From Asterias amurensis (lineage: Eukaryota; Echinodermata; Asteroidea; Forcipulatida; Asteriidae), in the NCBI RefSeq assembly GCF_032118995.1, contig NC_092656.1, positions 19,736,965 through 19,800,964 of the forward strand: 64,000 bases of DNA. The letters are read 5' to 3'. Positions 36,199 to 56,080 of the stretch are shown piece after piece (positions within the stretch are counted from its first letter, which is position 1; every line of letters begins with the position of its first letter). Below the pieces are notes generated by a model. It had not been told where the DNA came from. It made no database searches and saw only the letters and a list, made by a program, of their open reading frames with translations. Both the position numbers and the translations under genes were made by a program.

Positions 36199-36584
36199 TT
36201 AAAGGCAGTGGACACTATTGGTAATTACTCAAAATAATTATTAGCATAGAACCTTTCCTGGTGACGAGTAATGGGGAGAGGTTGATGGTCTATAACATTG
36301 TGAGAAACGGCTCCCTCTGAAGTGCCATAGTTTTCGAGAAAGAAGTAATTTTCCACGAATTTGATTTCAAGACCTCAGATTTAGAACTTGAGGTCTCGAA
36401 ATCAACCATCTAAACGCACACAACTTCGTGTGATGGGGGTGTTTTTTCTTTCATTATTATCTCGCAAGTTTGATGACCGATTGAGCTCAAATTTTCACAG
36501 GTTAGTTATTTTATGCATATGTTGAGATACACCAACTGTGACGGCTAGTCTTTGACAATTACCAATAGTGTCCACTGCCTTTAA
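36199..36584 (-). mobile_element. TTAA MITE (family 1) just after the TIR-gene stop codon
   Basis: Full-length copy with both termini. It begins 50 bp beyond the stop codon of the Death-TIR-TIR gene, so it is probably transcribed in that gene's 3' UTR. Confidence 0.8.
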
Positions 36585-36634
36585 AGATAAAGGCACTAGT
36601 CACAAAAACACAATTATTCGTCTTATTTTCTTTT

Positions 36635-37536
36635 TTAGATAATTGCACAAACAGACGAAGATTTCTTTGGTTTTGCAGGAGCAGATTTGGGTCTTTCTGG
36701 TTGAACTACCTGAGCATGCTGGGGGCCATTTGATGCTGATCTAGGCCGCTCAGGTTTATCGGGAGACTTTGCAGCTTCTTCCTTGTGATTTACATCCGGG
36801 ACTTGTTTCAAGGGTTGTTTGTCTTCCGTTTGTTCTACGGTCTGACTGGGATTTTTAGTTGTAGGTTCTTCTTCTGGTTTTTCCTCTTGACCGCCCTCTG
36901 CTGGTAGATTTTGCTGAATGACCAATTCTTCAACCGTTGCGTGTTCTTTGAGCTTCTCTAGCAATTCATCAAACTTGTTATCGGTGAAATCTTTCTGGGT
37001 TGACTCTTTGGTGAAGTCGATGTAGAGAAGCTGCGCAAAGGGCATGCTCATTGGACCTTCTGGAGGCCACGCCATCTGCTCCATGAGGATCGGGATAACG
37101 GGTTTCCTGAGAGCATCGGAAAGGCTGACCTCTCGACGACAGTTTGCTGAGAGGGCGTACTTTGGCGTCACGCTAGAAACCACAACCTGTGAAACGAAAA
37201 TATTACTCATTCATGTTAAGGTTATGTTAAAAAATATTCAGAAGTTAGGATAGGCTTGCCATCCTTACCTGAATATCTGTAAGGCACATTTTACAACAGT
37301 AAAATGATGCAACAACACAAACTTCAGAATGTCAGAATGTAATGGTTTACTAAGAATACCTTTGCATTTCTTATTCCTTTATCGATCTTCGAGTAGAGAG
37401 GATCTCCTCCACCCATCTGAAGGATATCAAGCCAGCAGCTGAATCCCAGTGATGTCAATCGAGAGTAAAGTTTCTTGATCTCTGTTTGTTTGTCCCATTG
37501 GTAGGAGATAAACACCTGCGGGATCAACTCATCCAC
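36635..37536 (-). CDS. TIR gene exons 16-17: second TIR domain, basic tail and CaaX
   Basis: Exon 37360-37536 has [29 protein letters not shown]; exon 36635-37186 has [30 protein letters not shown] and FAQLLYIDF. Glu1005 (CRREV) matches Glu812 of TIR-1. The last 90 residues are rich in Pro, Glu and Lys, with two RPxSA repeats ([16 protein letters not shown]), and end [15 protein letters not shown] fits CaaX; the preceding lysines fit a polybasic membrane signal. Confidence 0.88.
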
Positions 37537-40500
37537 CTGTCACGAGGAACAAATCAGAATCAATAATTGGTAAGGTTTTGTCCTGGTTTGTGTACGAAAT
37601 AATTATAGGTTTGGTGATGACTTCTTCTTTCGAGTCCATCATCTACTCTTCAAATGTTTGGTCAGGATTGGGCACATCTTACAGCCTTCTCTTTACTGTC
37701 AACAGGTCTTCAAGTCAGCACTGCTCCTCAACGGCTGGGCATCGTATAGGAGGTGTGGCATAGTGATGACTATAATCCACAGAGATTTATAGAATTGAGT
37801 TTTACCTGATCCTGTGTTGCCGGATTCTGCGTGGATGAATTGGTTGATGGTTGAGTACTATCCGCTTTCTTGACAACCTGAGGAAGATCATCAATCTGGG
37901 GCACCCAGTTGCGATACTCTGTAAATAAGGAAGGAGGCAAAGGAACAACAATAAGACAATGAAGAATGCCACTTCGTTTTTATGAAGGCATCATGGATGG
38001 TTTATTGCCAACTTTTAAATATTAAAGGCTGATTTATAAGGAATTTTATGAAATCTTACCGTCAGTGATCATGTCTTCATCCGGAGCAGCATGGTAACTA
38101 ATCTGTCCAAGTAACTCGGCAAACTTGGCATCTTCCCAAAACTTGTCTCCCCTGATGTATTCCTTGTCGTTATAAAGCTGGATGTAGAGAAGCTGAGCAA
38201 ACAACATACTCATAGAGCCAGCTGGTGGCCAAGCTGTCTTTTCAATGAGTACAGGAATGATTGGCTTGTTCAACAGGTTGGCAAGATTCACCTGTTATAG
38301 AATAAAAGGCTTCATTGTTGGCATGGATTGAATGTTATGGGGGTACGTCAACGAGGAATACTGCAACGGGTACATTAAAAATGACATCCCACTTCTGACA
38401 CCATTTTTGTCGTACAACGCTAGGACTCGGTGTACAGTTTAATTCTGTTTAGCACCGGGCTCTTATTAGTGTACTGTGTACTACTCTGAAGCACACAAAA
38501 CAAGTTCAACAGCCATTTAATCTTCAATGACTTTCATGTGCCGTTTAGAGCTTACCTCTTTATTGCAGTTTTCCGACTTGGAGTATTTCTCAGTGCACAT
38601 GCAGAGGACTACCTTTGCAGCTCTCATGCCGTCGTTGATCTTAGCAAATAGGCTATCACCACCTCCCATCTGACCGATATCCAGCCAGCAACCAAAGCCA
38701 GCTTTCTCAAGATGTTCCTTGATGACTTTCACCTCTGCTTGATGATCCCACTGGTAGCTGATGAAGACCCGAGGGGGTTTCTCTGACATGTCAGGGGCCG
38801 CCTTTGGTACCAGAGCATCTAGCATACACGGAAAATTCAAATTATTGCTTTGTTGTGCCAAGTGCTTTTTTTTATATCATGATCAATTCTCGGTTAAAAT
38901 TTAATTAACTCCGTTTTTGTGTTTTGGTACAATACCCTAAAACAATAGCCATATTTAACTCACATGTTTACTTGGGAAACCGGCTTGTGTATGCCAAGTT
39001 ATTTGGAAAGAAATGTGTTTGCTGTTTTTAAAATGTTGATGTATGGAAGACTGTACGTCTGCTGTGAGAACACCAAACAATGACTAGTATTAAAACGGAG
39101 ATACTATTTAACGTCATCATACCTGCAACTTAATAATATGGTTACCGTTGTAAAAGTATTGATGTATAGAATAATTCGTCTGCCGTGAGAACACCATAAT
39201 GTAACCAGTGTTAACTGGAGATACCAATCTACGTCATCATACCTGCAGATTGCAATGATTCCTCCACAATGGCGGACGCATCTTCTCTACCCATATCCTG
39301 TAATGCAGTCAGTACAGCATACGTAGCTTCACTACTCTTATGTACAGTGTACCATTCCGCCAGTAGGGCCATCGTAGGGTCTGGAGACAGTGCCCAGTTG
39401 CGGACATCTTCCCCTGTGAAGCCAAGACGTATAGCCAGGTACCTCCAATCGTGTTCATGCTCGGGGTTGAGAAGCTTGGAGACGTCTCGTGACCACTTTG
39501 GTGCATTGGTGATCGTCTGAATTTAAAAAAAAAGATGTGATACAAAATGTTGATGTTTATTGGGTCTAAAGTTAAGTTTGACATAAATTGTCTTCTCTTT
39601 TATAAGTAGCCATGTTTGATAAACTTGTAAAGGTCTTTGACAATACTAACTTTGTGATCGATTTCGTCAACTTTTAACACCGTGTCGTCAACCACTTCTT
39701 CAAGCTCGTCCAGCCTTTCACCTTGTTCCACAACCTCGTTCTTCACATTGTCGATCTCCTGGCCTTGCTCTGTTACAGTCTTATCAAGTCGATCCACATT
39801 GTCCTCCGTCACGGTTACTCGGGTATCCAAGGTCTTGACGTCATCTTTGACTTCGTCCACTTCATCAGCAAGAGTTTCCAAGCTGGAAAAACATAGGGTG
39901 CGTTCGTTTAGCTTCCCTGGGTCGACCCGTCCCGGTGTGTGGCGGTTTTTTTCCCCCAGGACGAACGTGTGCAGATAATTACCCACGATCGTCCTGGAAG
40001 AAAAAACCGCAACACACCGGGGTCGACCCAGGGAACGCACCCATATTGTGATACAAAACCTTACCTCAACGGTACTACAATGTGTTTATTTAAAGTGGCC
40101 ATGAATGAAACACGTATGAAAGTCTTGTGAAAGAATTGTGTTATTGCTTCTTCCTGAGAACAAATGTATTACACTTTCAACTGCCTCACTGTCATTTGTT
40201 CTTGACAAGTTATCATAGGCTGGCTTTATGTGATAAACCGTTTGTTATAATGGAGGGGGTGGGGCTTTGTTTTAATTACGAATATAGAAATGAATTAATC
40301 TTACCTCCGACCTTCCATAAAGTCTATCAAACTCTGTATAAGATCAGGCACACCCATCTGTTGACTTGTCTTAAACGGTTCAATATCAGCTCTGTACTTC
40401 TTCAAGATTTCTACGTATTTTCGGCCAACCCTCTTCATCTCCATTAAGATGGTACTTATCCACATGTCGTCCGTTGTCTTCAGCTTATCTACGAATACTT

Positions 40501-43500
40501 TGAGGCAACGGTCAGCTTGTTTCTGTACAAACACAGAGATAAATTTCCAGTTACCATCGCTGTACTATAGTTTGCTGTCAAACACAGTCTGGGTTCTCAA
40601 AAGAGTACAAGTCGTCTTGCTAACAGCAATAAAAGCAATTGACATGTCTAACGTAAAAGCCCGATTCATACTTCATGCGAATTTTGACGTCACAAATTCG
40701 CAACGTCGCATCAGTTGAGCTTAACAGCTCAAGTTGACTTGTGACGTCAAAATTCGCTTCGTAGTTGCATTCGCAGGAAGTTTAAACTGCTTTAGAGTTC
40801 TACTTGTAGCAGCAGTATCGCTCTTACCTCATCAATTTGGCCGACACTTGCAACTACCTTGGCTACAGCGTGGATCGTGTATGGTGTCTGCTTAGTCACT
40901 CGTAACAACTTGTCGATCTTGTCGACAAAGAGTTCTGGGAATTTGATCGACACAGTTCCTAGGACCATGAGAACCAGATGTGATAGCTGGCCATTTGTTG
41001 CGTCATCCATCATCAGATCGACGTAAGGCACTAATAACTAGAAAAAAGACAAATTTAACTGGAGTGAGTGTTTGAAAACTGTATAAATTGAAAGCTGCTG
41101 TACTTCTAAAACTAAAAGTTTGTTATTGCCATTAGTTTTAAACTACCAAACTTATACCTTCCATTTAAAATACCAAGTAACTTTCGCATAGTTAGTTGAT
41201 GATTAGTTAGTTGATGGTTAGTATTTCGTTAATGGTGTTACACTCGGTTTGTTTACCTTAACTCAATTGAAATGGTAACACATGTTTAAACTTTTAATTC
41301 AAATAATTTACGACTTTACCAATAATGACTTTTAGAGAGGCTTATAATACCTTGGCGTTATCCTTGGCTACGTCATCCCATAACATATACATGTTGGTTT
41401 TGTTGGATTGATTCATATCTTCCATATACTCAGCTAATTGGTCGAACCTACTCAAAATTGGTTCTGGACTTGCGGCATATAGAGGCTTCAAAACAACTGT
41501 AAAATAAGGTAAAATAAGGTAAAATAAACATCCATTGACCATAATTCTCAAGGAGAACTTTAAAAATGTCCTGGTGTATGGCAAAACCAACAATAATTGA
41601 AAGAATAAGCCCCTTACTATACAATGAGATAAAGAAGTAAAAGTTAATAGACGCAAACTTGAAATACCATGATAAACTTTAAATTAATTTCATCAAGGAT
41701 TGTCAAATGAGCAAGAAAAGTTACAAGAACACCACCTTAAAGGAACGTTACAGAATTGGTAAGAAACAAAAATCGTGAAGATCACCGATTTACATCAAAC
41801 TTACACGGTCCAATGATGATGTTATAGTTGAAAACATCCCTTGAAATATTTCTGTCTGTAATGTCCAATTTGATGAGAAATACATAATCTAACTTCGCGT
41901 ATAGAGTTTATCGCTCAGTGAGCGTTTTATTCATTTTTAATTTTGGCATCGATGCAATGCAAAATTTGTAATCGGTTTTTCACTATTCTCTCGTGATCTA
42001 GATGGCCGATCGATCTCAAACTTCGACAGGTTTGTCAGTTAATGTATAGGGTGGATTACATAAAGTGTTTACACTGCCAGCAACAGTTTTGTTAGCAAAA
42101 ACCAATTCTGTAATGTTCCTTTAAATAAAGTCTGAAAAACTAATGTGGTGTTGATCTAAAATTGTCATTTTGAGATTGTATAAAAACCTAATGTGGCTAG
42201 CACTTACACAGGACTTACATCGGCACAATAATTATAACAGCATTATTTGAAAGCAGTTTGCAGGTTTTTTTTTAAACACTGAAAGATGTCCTTCCATATA
42301 TTATAGAATATTGTGTTTATGTAAACAGTTTGCAGTAAATTGAGACAACATACCGCCAATCATGTCACTTTTCCCAGCCAGGAATACTTCTATAACATCA
42401 TCAGCACATGGTGCGAGTAGATCTATTTGTTGGTAGAAGCTTGTAACACAACCAGATGCTACGGAAATCAACGTCTCACAGTCTCCTTTAAGAATCGTCA
42501 TCACTCCCGGGATAAAGTCTTTGACGGCCCTTGCGTTACCACGGTGCTGTGGGGAAATAACTAGGAATCAACTGTTTGGATGATGAGGACAGAGAATGAA
42601 TGATTGATAAAGAGTTGTTGTTCCTCTTCCAGAATTAAGTGATTTACAGAATCTATGATGACTATCTTATCTTATCATGGGAGGGTCCTCTATTGTAAAG
42701 AATTGAAGTGTTTCTTGCGATTTCATGTACCATCAGTAGTAACTACCTTTTAGGGGAAAAAAAACAAAAAACAGGGAGACGGTGTTATATTTAGAACTTG
42801 TATTCCTTTATATTCTACTACCACGGAGTAGATTTTCGGAATTCGGGTGACAAGAAAAGAACTGTCCTGCTTCTAACCGTAAACAAAAATTGATACCTCA
42901 TCAAGCAATGCCTGAAATCCCATTGACTGACCCACCTTATTAACGAATGCAGAGCAGATAGTAAGCGCTATGCGCCCCCATCCCGAGTACGGTTCGCCGT
43001 CTAACTCCTGTGTCAGCACAAACTGGAATATTTCATTCAACTCCTTCGCATATTTTGATGGTGCTCTGAATATCAAACAAAAGTATAAAGTTGAAGAAAA
43101 TGTCAGATGTGCCACTTCGATTTACTCATAACTCTGTTTGCAAGCTTTCCAATAGCTCTTATATGAAGTGATTAGAGCATACTGGTAGAAATTTTGAGTT
43201 GTTAACCATTGGCTCTTTCCAGAACAAATACTCAATAGAAATTTACACATGGTGTTCCGCATCTAACATGATTAAACTCTTTTGAAAAAGAAAAAAAGAA
43301 GGAATTCAATAGAGGCCGCTGTTTATTGTATGTTAACTTTATTCAATAATTCACATAGAATGGAGAAATAATAAACACGCTGATATATTATAATAATCAA
43401 AAGAAGTAATTTCCAGTTTAATTTGGAGCCTTCTACAAGGGCATTTGTGACAATTGTTTTGTCTAAGGAGCAACTATAACACGCAATAATCACAAAATGA

Positions 43501-46500
43501 TGATACAAATTAATGTGAACAAGATTGAATAGACCATTGGAATGTGCTCACATTGGTGACATGTCATCAAGTTGGAGCAATACATGCAATATTAGAGCAT
43601 TTCCATAATATTTCAAATTGATCCACACTCTACATCTAATTACTTACCCAGCACCTGCTAGTGACGATTCTAATGTACTATTAATGGCTTTTACTTTGTC
43701 ATCAGATAAGGATTCCATATCCAAGTCTCCTGATTTTATCCACACATACATGGCACGTATAATCTCAGCAAGATTATTTTCTGTCCCCTGTTAAAAAAAA
43801 ATATCACGATCACCACATGTCAGTAGAACTTAGCTTTATTTTTGTACGTAATCCCATAACCTTGTATTTTTGAAGGTCGTAGGGCCGGGCACCACAGCTG
43901 AATTATTAATGATTGTGTGTCATCCAATAGGAGACTTTTGGGACGCTTGGTGGCAGCAGACTTACTAGGTTAATTCCATTGTTCTCGGTAATGTGCGCCT
44001 GCTCAGAGCTACGTAAACAATGGAAATTTACCTGGTAGGTCTGCTGCCACCTAGCATTCCAAAGTCTCCCATTCGGTCTTCCACTATAATATCTGCGACG
44101 TGCTGCCGCCCACTCCTGGATGTTGTCTTCCCATCGTTTCCTTTGTCTTCCGTGTTTCTATTGCCAGGGACTGTGCCTTGTACTTTGTAGTATGGTCTTT
44201 GAGCGTCCTTTTGACCGGGTGGTGTTTCCTCTTCCTTACTACTACTGAACTTATAGATACCATGATATAAGTATTGTTTTGTTTTGTTTGTTACGATATT
44301 TACCTCCCAGGTTATGGTATGGCATGAGCTTGAGACAAAAGCCAATGCTTTAACAATTTGTAAATCGTCTGGTGCCTTGAAGAAGACTACAATGACCTCA
44401 ACCATGAACTTGCTCACTTTCTTCAAAATCTTGTCTCGGCTGAAAAAAATAGTTCAAGAGAATTTTATGTAAAAGTTATTTACATAGAATGCGACCACCT
44501 TTTGAAATGGTTTTGTACATTTACATTTCGGCATATATAGAATTAAAACGATTGAAAAGTTCCAAAAACTAAAGGCAGTGGACACTATTGGTAATTACTC
44601 AAAATAGTTATTAGCATAAAACCTTTCTTGGGGACAAGTAATGGGGATAGGTTGGTGGTATAAAAAATTGTGAGAAACAGCTCCCTTAGAAGTGCCATAG
44701 TTTTGATTTCGAGACCTCAAGTTTAGAACGTGAGGCCTCAAAATCAACCAAAACGCACACAACTTCGTATGACAAGGGTGTTTTCTTCTTTCATTGTTAT
44801 CTCGCAACTTTGATGACCGATTGAGCTCAAATTTTCACAGGTTTGTTATTTTATGCATATTATGTTGAGATACACCAACTGTGAAGACAATTACCAATAG
44901 TGTCCACTGCCTTTAAACCAATTATTGAGAGGGACGATAAGCTTACGAGTAAAGTGTTATGACAACATGACCAGTCTTTAATTAAGTGACAAATGCCTAT
45001 CTTTTTTAAATTATCTGCGGTTATTAAGAACTTACTCAAATGCTTCCATCATTTTCTCGATACATGACGTCATTGCCTTGCCTATTTCTGTTTCACTTGG
45101 TTTGATATCTTTACCCCACCAATCGTCCTTTTCAGTTCTGATGAGTTTCACTGGAGCTTCGAACGTTTTGATCAGTTTCTCAGCCAATGGGATGCGTTCC
45201 TGGGAAGAAAGTTATCGACAAATTGTTGCTTTACCTTTCTATAGTTCTTTTGTATTTGGATCTTTTAAAGGCAGTGGACACTATTGGTAATTGTCAAAGA
45301 CTAGCCTTCACAGTTGGTGTATCTCAACATACGCATAAAATAACAAATCTGTGAAAATTTGAGCTCAATCGGTCATCGAAGTTGCGAGATAATAATGAAG
45401 GAAAAATAACACTTGTCAAACGAAGTTATTTGCGTTTAGATGGTTGATTTCGAGACCTCAAGTTCTAAATCTGAGGTTTCGAAATCACATTCGTGGAAAA
45501 TTACTTCTTTCTCAAAAACTATGGCACTTTAGAGGGAGCCGTTTCTCACAATGTTTTATACTATCAACCTCTCCCCATTACTCATCACCAAGAAAGGTTT
45601 TTTTGCCAATAATTATTTTGAGTAATTACCAATAGTCTCCACTGCCTTTAAATAGGCCTACGTCAGTGTAAAGCGCTCCGATCTTTGTATGGGCGCTTTA
45701 AATATGCCTTTATGTAAATTGTAATGTAATGTCATAATATTCGATGAAATAATCTTGAGCACGTGTTGCAAACATTTTAAAATTCTCCTCTAGATGAGCA
45801 GAGTGTACTGTTCGAAACGTCGAGACCCAACCGGCTCTTTTCAGAGCCAACACTCACCCTAAGAGATATACACATGGTTGTACCCGCAAGTTTACTATTT
45901 ATTTATAGTTTCGTCTTATTTTAAAATCGTTAACAGATCATGGAAATTTGCATCGGGGATAACAATTATAAATTTTGGTTTTACCCACTTAAATTTGAAA
46001 TCTTGTTTTTCAATTGAGAGATGGTTAAAGTGGAAGTGTGTCTGGCTTGGCTTTTTCTTTCCTGTTTGGCCAATTTAAGACGTACCTTCCAATTTATAAT
46101 CTTTTTGTCCTGAAACATCTTAGCAGCAAGCTCGTAATACTTAGTTGTTCTTTTCTCAAAGCAAACTTGACATAACTCCACCATTAGGTTCTCGTATATA
46201 TTTTTCCTGAAAAAGAAGTGAAATATTAGAAAACTGTTTACTCCCAAATCCATTGAAGTTAAGCTCCAGTTTGAAGTCCTCTCCAACCGGGGTAAAATAT
46301 TGGGGGGGGGGGTATGAGTTTAAAAGAGAGGGAGAGGGGCAATGGCATTTCAAATACAATCCTGCAACACAGTATGTTTAATAGCTCAGCAACTTACATG
46401 GAATTAGTTATGGCATAAAGCGTAGGTTATTCTTGGCTGCAGTTTGACATAGCTACTTCTATTTTCACACTTTAAAAAAAAGTAATGATGTACCCTTATA

Positions 46501-46681
46501 AAGGTTCTCACTTTGTTTTGACTTCTTTCAGCATTGGTCCTGTAAGTGCATCACTTAAATCATCTCTCCTCTTGAGATCGTCTTCATCATTTCTTATCAT
46601 CTCCAGAACTTGAGGCATGTAAGTCTCAATAGCCGTTGGATCTGCTTTGATCAATTTGGCCAATTCCTCCTTGCTCGCCAT
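36635..46681 (-). CDS. Helical-repeat / coiled-coil / Death / TIR / TIR / CaaX protein, 1169 aa
   Basis: Seventeen exons join in frame: 46512-46681, 46086-46206, 45036-45199, 44304-44439, 43648-43787, 42897-43065, 42354-42546, 41351-41496, 40828-41037, 40305-40522, 39651-39882, 39243-39516, 38556-38818, 38060-38291, 37806-37918, 37360-37536 and 36635-37186. They total 3510 nt with one stop. Domains: helical repeats about 1-555, coiled coil 556-633, Death about 634-724, TIR-1 about 740-880, linker to 927, TIR-2 about 928-1070, Lys/Pro tail, and C-terminal CAII. Death plus TIR is the makeup of MyD88-type adaptors; helical repeat plus TIR recalls SARM1, but there is no SAM domain. Likely role: intracellular innate-immune or cell-death signalling at a membrane. 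The start ATG ([10 protein letters not shown]) opens the first good coding exon; a 5' UTR intron acceptor lies near 46803. Confidence 0.88.
37806..37918 (-). CDS. TIR gene exon 15: inter-TIR linker
   Basis: A 113-nt exon with [15 protein letters not shown] followed by a Ser/Thr/Gln/Asn-rich tract ([16 protein letters not shown]). It is low-complexity and probably flexible, letting the two TIRs move independently. Starts in phase 1 and ends in phase 0. Confidence 0.8.
38060..38818 (-). CDS. TIR gene exons 13-14: first TIR domain
   Basis: Exon 38556-38818 gives [11 protein letters not shown] (box 1), [18 protein letters not shown] (BB-loop region) and ENCNKE. Exon 38060-38291 gives [16 protein letters not shown] (box 2 region), FAQLLYIQL and the last helix. 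The Glu of NKEV (residue 812) falls where SARM1 has its catalytic Glu. The FISYQW type is nearer to TIR_2-like and SARM1-like TIRs than to Toll-receptor TIRs. Confidence 0.88.
39029..39249. repeat. Tandem duplication over the exon 12 donor
   Basis: Two units of about 100 bp (39029-39129 and 39150-39249) share TTGATGTAT, CGTCTGC, GTGAGAACACCA, GGAGATAC and ACGTCATCATACCTGCA. The right unit holds the real donor of the Death exon. The left unit carries a copy of the same donor (GTATGATGACGT on the minus strand), a ready-made cryptic splice site. Confidence 0.7.
39243..39516 (-). CDS. TIR gene exon 12: Death domain
   Basis: A single exon (about residues 634-724) encodes a Death-fold domain. It shows the [16 protein letters not shown] core seen in Death domains (D-W-x-x-L-A-x-x-L-G), then [20 protein letters not shown] and a closing helix AIVEESLQ. 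Death domains pair with one another in adaptor assemblies such as MyD88-IRAK. The donor lies within a copied block (39150-39249). Confidence 0.88.
39651..39882 (-). CDS. TIR gene exon 11: coiled coil
   Basis: One exon encodes about 77 residues of heptad-like sequence ([34 protein letters not shown]), with Val/Leu at regular spacing and acidic flanks. It should oligomerise the protein, which is the usual way TIR NADases and Death adaptors are activated. Starts in phase 2, ends in phase 0. Confidence 0.85.
39896..40042. mobile_element. 147-bp foldback element beside TIR-gene exon 11
   Basis: GGGTGCGTTC at 39896 pairs with GAACGCACCC ending at 40042, and the arms (CCCTGGGTCGACCC, CGGTGTGT, CGGTTTTTTC) continue inwards. 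Possible short target repeat ATA. One tip lies 14 bp from the exon 11 boundary. Confidence 0.75.
40305..46681 (-). CDS. TIR gene exons 1-10: helical-repeat N-terminal region
   Basis: Ten exons encode about 555 residues of amphipathic helices typical of HEAT/ARM-like solenoids. In the later part, [13 protein letters not shown], the segment GQIDEKQADRCL and ILMEMKRV resemble what I recall of the N-terminal helical region of VEPH1/Melted (a corresponding GHVDEERARSCL). That match comes from memory and is not a search result. If it holds, the N-terminus is Melted-like with the usual C-terminal PH domain replaced by Death-TIR-TIR. Confidence 0.6.
40657..40785. mobile_element. Inverted-repeat MITE (TTCATGCGAAT family) in TIR-gene intron
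   Basis: Foldback of about 130 bp: CATACTTCATGCGAATTTTG pairs with CAAAATTCGCTTCG...CAGGAAGTTTAAAC. Centre near GAGCTTAACAGCTC. Between exons 10 and 9. Confidence 0.65.
41737..42124. mobile_element. TTAA-flanked element (family 3) in TIR-gene intron
   Basis: TTAAAGGAACGTTACAG at the left and CTGTAATGTTCCTTTAA at the right, 388 bp. The interior has CGATCTCAAACTTCGACAGG, like the middle of families 1 and 2. Between exons 8 and 7 of the TIR gene. Confidence 0.75.
43930..44072. mobile_element. Foldback MITE (GGAGACTTTTGGGA family) in TIR-gene intron
   Basis: GGAGACTTTTGGGACGCTTG and GGTGGCAGCAGAC pair with GTCTGCTGCCACC and a right end close to CAAAGTCTCCC. A half copy lies near 10405-10480. 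Confidence 0.7.
44569..44917 (-). mobile_element. TTAA MITE (family 1) in TIR-gene intron
   Basis: Both termini present, with an internal deletion relative to the longer copies. Lies between exons 4 and 3 of the TIR gene. Confidence 0.8.
45264..45651 (+). mobile_element. TTAA MITE (family 1) in TIR-gene intron
   Basis: Full-length copy starting 65 bp from exon 3 of the TIR gene, opposite in orientation to the copy at 44569-44917. Confidence 0.8.
45787..45910. repeat. Dispersed repeat copy (CTGTTCGAAACGTCG family)
   Basis: Second copy of the repeat at 19220-19500, in a TIR-gene intron, with the same motif order. Confidence 0.55.
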
Positions 46682-53187: not shown

Positions 53188-53593
53188 ACCTCTATATCAT
53201 GTGGTGAGACAACATTTATTTATTCATTGTAATGTTTATTTCTCTTACCAATGCAAGCCCCACTCATTCCATTTAAGCAAAACATAAAGTATTTGTGTAA
53301 TAGACCTATATGATGTTTTCACTCCACTACTGATTCTTGGGAAAGTGACATGGGGTAAAGAGCCCCCTAGCAAGAGATCAATTGATGACCAAACACCTGT
53401 GTAAGATCGCTGTTTTGAGTCAAGTATGAAATGATTGCACAGCTTCCTTTCAAGTGCCTCAAATGATGTAGTTATAACAGTAATCTAATTTTGCTCAAAG
53501 ATGCAATGTTAAAGCATGGAGCAAGTAAGATTCTTTTTAAAGAACTTGTTTTCAAAAAAGGCCTCAAAATGCCCCACTGTGCCCACAGCACTT

Positions 53594-53795
53594 GCTGTGG
53601 TGCCCTGTGCTTTTGTTGTGGTGCCCTGTGCTTTTGTTGTGGTGCCCTGTGCTTTTGCTGTGGTGCCCTGTGCTTTTGCTGTGGTGCCCTGTGCTTTTGC
53701 TGTGGTGCCCTGTGCTTTTGCTGTGGTGCCCTGTGCTTTTGCTGCGTTGCCCTGTGCTTTTGCTGTGGTGCCCTGTGCTTTTGCTGTGGTGTGCC
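53594..53795. repeat. 21-bp minisatellite, about 9.5 copies
   Basis: Unit TGTGGTGCCCTGTGCTTTTG plus one base, copies nearly identical; one has GCGTTG for GTGGTG. Because 21 is divisible by three, several frames stay open on both strands, producing spurious 75-160-aa ORFs. Related dispersed text (GGGCACC, GCAAGGCCA) recurs near 51800-51920, 57820-57905 and 59870-59950. Confidence 0.9.
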
Positions 53796-56080
53796 GTCCA
53801 CGAGTCCTGTACAAATTAACATTTTCTTCATAGAGGTGCCCCTTACCTTAGGGAAATTTGCTGTGCCCCCTTCAAGTCAAGAGAGAAGTTCAAGGGCTGG
53901 AAACTGTGATTCAACTTATCACTTAAAGACTTGCACCAATAAAACTGTCAAAGTGAAATTTTCTTCGGAACTTATATAACTTTTGTTCAACTTATTACTT
54001 AATGACTTGTCACGAGAAACACTAATAGACCGTATTGAATATGATGTCACGCGGCTCAAATATCTGACCTACAAGATGGCGTCTGTGCGTGTACGTGCGT
54101 GTGTTCGTGCATGTGCCGTAGAAATCAAACTGGGAATGCTGCGTGATGCGTGCTTCGATGACGTACTCGTTTGGATGCACATACATCTTGCCCTACAAGA
54201 TGGCGACTTTTCATAGCAAGTTGTGAAACTGTATTCTAAGGAATGATTGCTAGAAACCTTTGTTCAAATTTGGAAAGAAAACCTTTCGAGGAGACTCTGC
54301 TAAGGTAAAAACATCCGTCCAGCCACTTACTATTTTTGCAAAACCCAAACTAGTGAAAGTTCAGATATCTAGTGTGAAATTGCAGTTTTAAGTGACCATC
54401 ATCCTTGACCCCTGGCCTGAGTATGGCTACAGTGACCACACTGACCATGACCTTGTTAAACCAATTACTCTCGCATACTTCCAGCTGCCCTTAAGGCATG
54501 ATGCACAAATCTTAAGATGATCCTCTACAGACATGACCTATCTTGAGGACATCTTCTAAGGCGCCCATACAAGACTTCTCAAAAGGAGAGGATCTAACCT
54601 GGTGGTCTTGAAGCTTATCACCTGCTACTTGTGGTTTAAGTGTTTAGACCCAGCACTCCAGGCTGTTTGTGGTTGAGACTGAAATCAAACACAAGAATTG
54701 GCAATGAATGTGGTACTTCATGTTATGAAGTAGCCCCTTTTTTTTGGAAAAACAATTTTAAACAGTTAATATAATAAGGAATTCAAATTAAACTCATTTA
54801 ATATTGATAAGTTGGTCATTTAAAACATTATAGTGTATCTGCCTTTTTTGATGAGAAGATGTGAAGGTGTCAAGTTATACAGAAAAGAAACCATTTATCT
54901 TTAATATTTTGTTCCCTTTCCCTGTTTTTATTAGTTTTGCAGGAGATATCAACAAATGAAATGTTGAAACATTGTAGCTCACCTTTTTGAAATGGCTCTG
55001 ACCTTTCGAAAGGTCAAACCTCACTACCATTGAAGCTTTTTGATGAGCAAATATTACGTGTTTATTTTACCACAATAGGAAGCACTTCAGAAGAGGTGTT
55101 CGCTTCCCTGAGTTATTGAATCAATAGAAGACATCTATACCTTGACCAGCTGGTGAACTTTGTCTCAAGTCCTCAAGATGATGATGAGGACACTACTTGA
55201 GAAATCTCAAGTTGAATTGAGACGTAAGTAAACGAGTTGTCATTACAACATCTTTAACTGATTCAAACTGATTGTACTGATTGTATGATGGCATCGTTGA
55301 AATATATACATGGGTGTCTCTTGAACTTAGAGTCTCAAGAATGTAGCTTTGAGCATGTGACTATGTGGATTGTTCATAAGAAAATAAAGTAGGTCATTTC
55401 ACCTAGGCAACCTGAAGATTGTCTTTTTGCAGATTTATGACGGAATGCTTTATTATGCTTTTGTAAACCACTGTTGGCTCAAGATCTCCCTTCCCAATTA
55501 ACAATGTAAACTACTAATGGAACACCAAAATGGGTAACAATATATGAGTGTTATTTGAAGATGTTGAATCATTGTGTGATTGCCCGAGCCGTCCCACCAT
55601 ATTTCAATATTTTGTGTCCACTTAAAAGTTACTTTGTTTGAGTTGTTCCCAATGTATGTAGTCGTCTTGCTTCTTGTGATATATTGTTTACTGATGAGGA
55701 TTGAAAAGACTGCTAATGATCAAAGTTAGGTCAGAAAGTTGAGCTGTCTTATTGTGAGGTTGAACCATGGATATGATCTACGATGAGTTATGTTGACTTC
55801 CCTAACCTACCGCTTAGAACCTTTCATATTAATCCCTTAACCCATACTCAACACCTGTCATGGAATAAAACAAACTAAATGCTTAGATTCTACTTTGATC
55901 TATAGCAGTTTCCTCAAGGTTGTTGACAAGCTCCTTGAGAGCAGGATGCTTCCTTTCAACATTGCCGTTGAATGCTCATAAATAACCTACTATGTACATT
56001 GTTCAATGTTGAAGTTCAAGTGCACTTAACCCATTAGTCCAAATAGGAGTCTCTAGAGGGTTGGGGTTTTGAAGCTCGTC

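Follow-up and report, generated by a model that had tools for sequence, protein, structure and literature searches.

A conserved CaaX-type C-terminus in a tandem-TIR protein family with an armadillo-like N-terminus, viewed from a gene of the sea star Asterias amurensis

We analysed a stretch of 64,000 nucleotides from Asterias amurensis (contig NC_092656.1, positions 19,736,965 to 19,800,964; hereafter the window), whose minus strand encodes a protein with a superhelical N-terminal part, a coiled coil, a Death domain, two TIR domains (TIR1 and TIR2) and a C-terminal CaaX box, CAII. The main finding, which rests on sequence, is that this CaaX end is kept by most of the family to which the protein belongs. 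Splice sites were picked from the genomic sequence and 17 exons joined, with all introns GT-AG, giving a single in-frame protein of 1156 residues and one terminal stop (36635..46681, minus strand, as are all coding features below; start codon at 46681, stop codon at 36635-36637). Exons 1-5 (46512-46681, 46086-46206, 45036-45199, 44304-44439 and 43648-43787) and 6-10 (42936-43065, 42354-42546, 41351-41496, 40828-41037 and 40305-40522), together spanning 40305..46681, encode a predicted armadillo-like all-α superhelix (residues 1-542). Exon 11 (39651..39882) encodes a predicted heptad coiled coil at about residues 546-620 and exon 12 (39243..39516) the Death domain, residues 632-705. TIR1 lies in exons 13-14 (38060..38818; Glu799 codon at 38556-38558) and is followed by an inter-TIR linker in exon 15 (37806..37918). 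TIR2 occupies exon 16 and the first part of exon 17 (36971..37536; Glu992 codon at 37130-37132), the remainder of which (36638..36970) encodes a mostly disordered tail ending in the C-A-I-I box (36638..36649).

The frame used is the sole open frame in 15 of the 17 exons, with exon 15 containing a second one. Exon 17 (36635-37186), interrupted by nothing except the terminal stop, carries the second half of TIR2, the tail and CAII, so the join between these elements is independent of splicing. A search of the genome (491.5 Mb, 23 contigs) gave one TGA in the TIR2 stretch (window 37351-37548), which is harmless to the model because the matched stretch overruns exon 16 (37360-37536), itself open. 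The A. rubens protein LOC117295983 (P0001), likely the orthologue from its sequence, is of equal length and aligns to 100% of the query with 97% identity; since relatives also occur in several phyla, the exons do not form a chance chain of open reading frames. A BLAST search of the protein against phages returned no match, as expected for an animal gene. A preliminary description, made from the sequence alone, had proposed one 17-exon protein joined in frame, and the GT-AG joins and the full-length A. rubens match bear this out. The Death core, two FISYQWD boxes and C-terminal CAII that it had reported are all present in the joined protein, the last with Cys at position −4 and an aliphatic a2 residue as its claim of a prenylation motif implied, and the Pfam HMM search that it had proposed supports the Death domain, the two TIRs and their order.

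Pfam finds TIR_2 in two stretches (protein-level E 1e-47; the TIR family proper, E 0.0015), the Death domain (PF00531, residues 632-705, E 7.7e-11) and a "SlyX" match at 556-606 that coincides with the coiled coil; the 14 families that it lists at E 1 or better do not include SAM. Hydrophobic residues within 546-622 recur with a period of 3.5, the strongest of seven tried, which none of 2000 shuffles reaches. AlphaFold2 (AF2) confidence falls below 50 in coiled-coil residues 574-576, 578-585 and 587-605 and in tail residues 1064-1148, and is low in the inter-TIR linker (883-915). Structure comparison of the AF2 model gives armadillo and TIR matches. Foldseek places SARM1 first by E-value, yet with TM scores of only 0.14-0.24, and in these model comparisons TIR2 appears similar to the TIR of a Hydra Toll-related receptor; the absence of the MyD88 TIR from the 50 fold-match rows listed carries no weight as a test. 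A profile search of the Protein Data Bank with the N-terminal helical region returned designed helical proteins, which we discount as helix bias, together with adaptins and importins, and no SARM1 at E 0.001. The solved sequence closest to the Death domain is p75NTR (E 1.1e-6; p75NTR/NRADD), with MyD88 at just E 0.2.

A clam gene with Armadillo-like motifs, a Death domain and two TIRs has been placed in ecTIR-DC family 6, after Gerdol 2017 (PMC6836662). The window gene is almost certainly a member, assigned by the described order: an Armadillo-like N-terminus and a central Death domain followed by two TIRs are both found here, and a further likeness is that no signal peptide or transmembrane segment is reported. 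An Armadillo fold has also been described in Aplysia MyD88-like proteins, LOC101850562 included (PMC9334734); this protein is P0068 among our relatives, as the S. purpuratus "MyD88-like protein L1" is P0007 (51% identity). Both belong to the same family by sequence and are known, in the excerpted literature, from a domain list and a record name. We therefore reject the idea of an undescribed architecture, the preliminary description having known of no protein with exactly this order: PMC6836662 gives the order and PMC9334734 the Aplysia proteins. The architecture is already described, and the gene adds a new member to a family that is known but uncharacterised; the excerpts of PMC2575513, PMC6321704, PMC11797021, PMC13093298 and PMC13142454 do not describe it. 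Family 6 is reported as highly expressed in mussel gills (PMC5549309), and the clam member as co-expressed with Toll-like receptors (TLRs) and predicted cytosolic (PMC6836662).

The same early characterization of the protein as a SARM1/MyD88-like hybrid holds as an analogy of parts and fails as ancestry, given the TIR_2 type, the lack of a SAM match and a Death domain that matches p75NTR better than MyD88. With SARM1, an ARM-SAM-SAM-TIR NADase, the protein shares a predicted armadillo-type superhelix ahead of a TIR and an aligned catalytic Glu, whereas it has two TIRs rather than one, no SAM match (we reject SARM1 orthology on these two grounds), a Death domain and coiled coil that likely serve for assembly, a CaaX end and Asn in place of Trp. 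With MyD88 it shares the succession of Death and TIR, but it differs in its two TIRs of TIR_2 type, its long superhelix, its CaaX end, a Death domain with p75NTR as its closer match and the lack of Box 2, which leads us to reject MyD88 orthology.

Our first search for relatives provided the best 120 of at least 161 matches (121 sequences with the window model), and a second, with a distant member as query, listed 90 proteins, of which 41 had not come up before, for 161 relatives in total. With domain profiles made from 12 echinoderm sequences, one of them the window model, we find the order N-terminal region, coiled coil, Death, TIR, TIR in 67 of the 121 and, with a split N-terminal match, in three more; 43 lack the N-terminal match, seven have Death-TIR-TIR only and one is without TIR2. 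The same order in other invertebrate proteomes, a check that the preliminary description had proposed, is thus found in 70 of the 121 sequences. At least two TIRs accompany a Death domain in 156 of the 161 relatives. Those named come from echinoderms, hemichordates, amphioxus, molluscs, one nemertean, annelids and rotifers, with no vertebrate among those listed (the best 120 of 161 in the first search, 90 in the second); a further profile search returned just two proteins, both from its own query set. In a tree of 46 TIR1 and 46 TIR2 domains, taken from the window model and no more than eight proteins of each phylum, the two sets fall wholly apart (local support 0.85), which argues that the TIR1/TIR2 pair arose before these phyla did.

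The CaaX box is likewise kept in most of the family, beyond what could be seen from one sequence. Among the 156 proteins with a Death domain and at least two TIRs, which are not independent as several species contribute many copies, Cys stands at −4 in 136 and Ser at −7 in 138, giving the motif KSxxCaaX. The Cys is found in annelids (8/9), amphioxus (4/4), echinoderms (23/27), hemichordates (7/8), molluscs (51/62), the nemertean (1/1), rotifers (22/23) and relatives of unnamed taxon (20/22). In the 120 relatives listed by the first search, Cys makes up 0.37% of the preceding 60 residues; 106 of them have it at −4, the residue at −2 then always being V, I, L, M, T, A or C, and their X residue is L in 59, I in 18, M in 15, S in 6, V in 5 and Q in 3. 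Across 300 between-phylum pairs, the last eight residues are 44% identical, versus 28% for the rest of the tail in a gapped alignment, and Ser −7 is common to 98%; these pairs were drawn from CaaX-bearing members only, so their shared Cys is by choice.

Twenty of the 156 are exceptions. Eight stop within 38 residues of TIR2 and look truncated. The other 12 keep tails of 53-354 residues with no KSxxCxxx motif inside, for which reason we do not accept that every CaaX-less relative is a faulty gene model; they come from Lymnaea, Candidula, Physella and two Biomphalaria, snails that we take to be pulmonates, from four Haliotis copies, and from Nucella, Mytilus and Saccoglossus (one each). A mite protein, P0160 (Dermatophagoides pteronyssinus), has a long and different N-terminus, a Death domain, a partial TIR and a CLII end. 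It may represent a sister architecture that shares this tail, and we would guess that its N-terminus is ROCO-like.

From these sequences, the window protein is very probably anchored in a membrane through an isoprenoid at its C-terminus, and most known relatives share the lipid-anchor signal, which points to a membrane as their site of action too. This differs from the published account, which in the excerpts predicts a cytosolic protein and mentions no CaaX box or membrane tether; neither "CaaX" nor "prenyl" occurs in the excerpts of PMC6836662. At title and abstract level, nothing among the matches listed links CaaX or prenylation to ecTIR-DC family 6, the text of Gerdol 2017 lying outside that search. 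The family-wide lipid-anchor-type end therefore looks new, in a family that is itself already described.

The TIR pair, with its Glu and Asn, bears on whether a second animal TIR family beside SARM1 destroys NAD+. The solved sequences nearest to TIR1 are Cat1 (E 7.6e-5), the 3h16 "TIR protein" (1.7e-4) and SARM1 (1.1e-3); those nearest to TIR2 are 7uwg, AbTIR and kin (7.6e-5 and 1.5e-4), presumably bacterial TIR proteins. PADLOC profiles match bSEFIR (8.4e-23), PDC-S66 (2.5e-17), the TIR-PNTD1-PNTD2 profile (1.3e-14) and ThsB (2.1e-11), and the NCBIfam matches, to a retron TIR (1.2e-14) and to a Thoeris protein (1.2e-13), score far below the curated cut-offs. Glu799 of TIR1 aligns with the Glu of the SARM1 HKE motif, which we take to be E642. 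This residue is named as catalytic in SARM1 (PMC7688312), and a Glu at the catalytic position is described as required for NADase activity, with a frequency above 90% in SARM1, in plant NB-LRR TIRs and also in TLR1/2/6/10, and below 10% in MyD88 (PMC7075850). With the window model included, the Glu is kept in 116 of 121 TIR1 domains, the other five (relatives P0116-P0120) having Gln, and in 118 of 120 TIR2 domains. Weighing against NADase activity, the SARM1 pocket-Trp position, four residues before the Glu, is Asn795 in TIR1 and Asn988 in TIR2, and Asn stands there in 116/121 and 119/120 sequences, respectively; W71 and E75 of SARM1 are reported to bind ligand (PMC7075850). Box 2 RDxxPG, given for the TIRs of TLRs, TIRAP and MyD88 (PMC7075850), is replaced by QMGGGD in both TIRs, and several diverged, uncharacterised animal TIR clades are known to exist (PMC13142454). 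On this comparison, we rate the chance that the TIRs cleave NAD+ as NADases just short of even. The fold match to the Toll-related receptor leaves that estimate unchanged, because it was already below one half.

We propose that the gene product is a soluble protein that would be held at a membrane by its C-terminal isoprenoid. Its armadillo superhelix may sense a ligand or partner and, like the ARM domain in SARM1, restrain the C-terminus; the coiled coil and Death domain would multimerize the chains, gathering paired TIR1-TIR2 modules on the membrane for signalling and possibly NAD+ cleavage. A prenyl-anchored, ARM-regulated, Death/coiled-coil-assembled tandem-TIR signalling protein is the best explanation we can offer, at what we judge to be an even chance, and for its core, an ARM-restrained multimeric effector, the balance tips slightly in favour. 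A bolder version, which we consider speculative and rather unlikely, would make the family a membrane-prenylated tandem-TIR NADase of ancient bilaterian origin. Animals would then have a second TIR executioner alongside SARM1, gated by its armadillo part and assembled through Death domain and coiled coil instead of SAM rings; its two TIRs would form a built-in composite active site, and KSxxCaaX would act as a membrane-targeting switch.

The family spans seven named phyla, yet published accounts, as excerpted, amount to little more than a domain list and one member predicted to be cytosolic. The conserved CaaX end predicts a site of action that would hinge on one residue, and natural comparisons exist in members that lack the CaaX box (pulmonate snails and some Haliotis copies) and in those with the TIR1 Glu-to-Gln change.

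The alternative that survives best, to which we give a substantial but clearly less than even probability, is a membrane-tethered scaffold or sorting adaptor, whose TIRs would dock TLRs or other TIRs while its Death domain recruits Death partners. Prenylation would then do the job of lipid or phosphoinositide binding in other TIR adaptors, such as TRAM and TIRAP. The Death-TIR order, the Trp-to-Asn change in both TIRs and the predicted likeness of TIR2 to the Hydra receptor TIR all fit such a role, and the 105 Death-domain matches in the genome are possible partners; the authors of the clam study also speculate on a part in TLR signal transduction (PMC6836662). It loses ground in that both TIRs have QMGGGD where Box 2 RDxxPG would stand, and in that a Glu rare in MyD88 TIRs is nearly invariant here.

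That CAII is no working prenylation signal, the Cys reflecting chance or a C-terminus conserved for other reasons, is improbable. Prenylation of the tail is predicted from sequence, and 20 of the 156 relatives do without the Cys; against this reading, however, the −2 residue is restricted to seven kinds in all 106 cases, and Cys −4 and Ser −7 are maintained across phyla. False fusion of two neighbouring genes, conceivable for an exon chain built from genomic sequence alone, is rejected as extremely unlikely given the full-length A. rubens match, the presence of the full order in 70 of the 121 sequences (a further 43 have the coiled coil, the Death domain and both TIRs), a paralogue with identical exon boundaries, and P0006, whose 1185 residues show the full order on a 6907-base contig with little room for introns.

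That paralogue, as we infer it to be from sequence, is A. amurensis P0002, an intact gene on contig C12 (9356422-9371033) with 86% identity to the window protein. All but one of its 1232 residues map exactly to C12, the exception lying at the edge of an exon, and its 17 segments have residue boundaries as in the window gene; its tail is longer, with a repeated stretch, and still ends in CAII. Between the two paralogues, ratios of nonsynonymous to synonymous substitution (dN/dS; our own Nei-Gojobori script) are 0.28 for the N-terminal part, 0.08 for the coiled coil, 0.00 for Death, 0.03 for TIR1, 0.10 for the linker, 0.07 for TIR2 and 0.53 for the tail. Over seven stretches (residues 623-625 and 709-726 lie outside the count), the window model departs from A. 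rubens at 39 positions: 32/545 in the N-terminal part, 2/77 in the coiled coil, 0/83 in Death, 0/124 in TIR1, 0/70 in the linker, 2/125 in TIR2 and 3/111 in the tail; residues 1-545 thus hold 32 of the 39, versus two across the 332 residues that make up Death, TIR1 and TIR2. The low dN/dS and few A. rubens differences indicate, at the sequence level, very strong purifying selection on the Death-TIR-TIR core, with the superhelix and tail evolving faster. Positive selection on the whole N-terminal part is not seen, its paralogue dN/dS being 0.28.

Elsewhere in the genome, a relative with one TIR and the Glu kept lies at C13:13433427-13434786, and a more distant TIR relative at C20:4276190-4276654; the latter carries a long insertion and, as judged by eye, has Asp where the Glu would be. 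By hand count, 27 of the 105 Death-domain matches fall on contig C18 at about 10.9-14.8 Mb, several in close pairs. A tandem TIR gene array at C15:3406509-3460582 comprises seven consecutive same-strand TIR matches with open frames of 796-864 residues. Within the window, an interspersed element of about 340 nucleotides occurs in three copies, 87-92% alike in matched parts and one of them inverted, at 36200-36585 (just past the stop codon), 44570-44917 (intron 3) and 45264-45650 (intron 2); its ends read, by eye, like AAAGGCAGTGGACACTATTGGTAATT. A short tandem repeat at 53467-53979 is open on both strands (CCGALCF / QQKHRAP) and probably non-coding.
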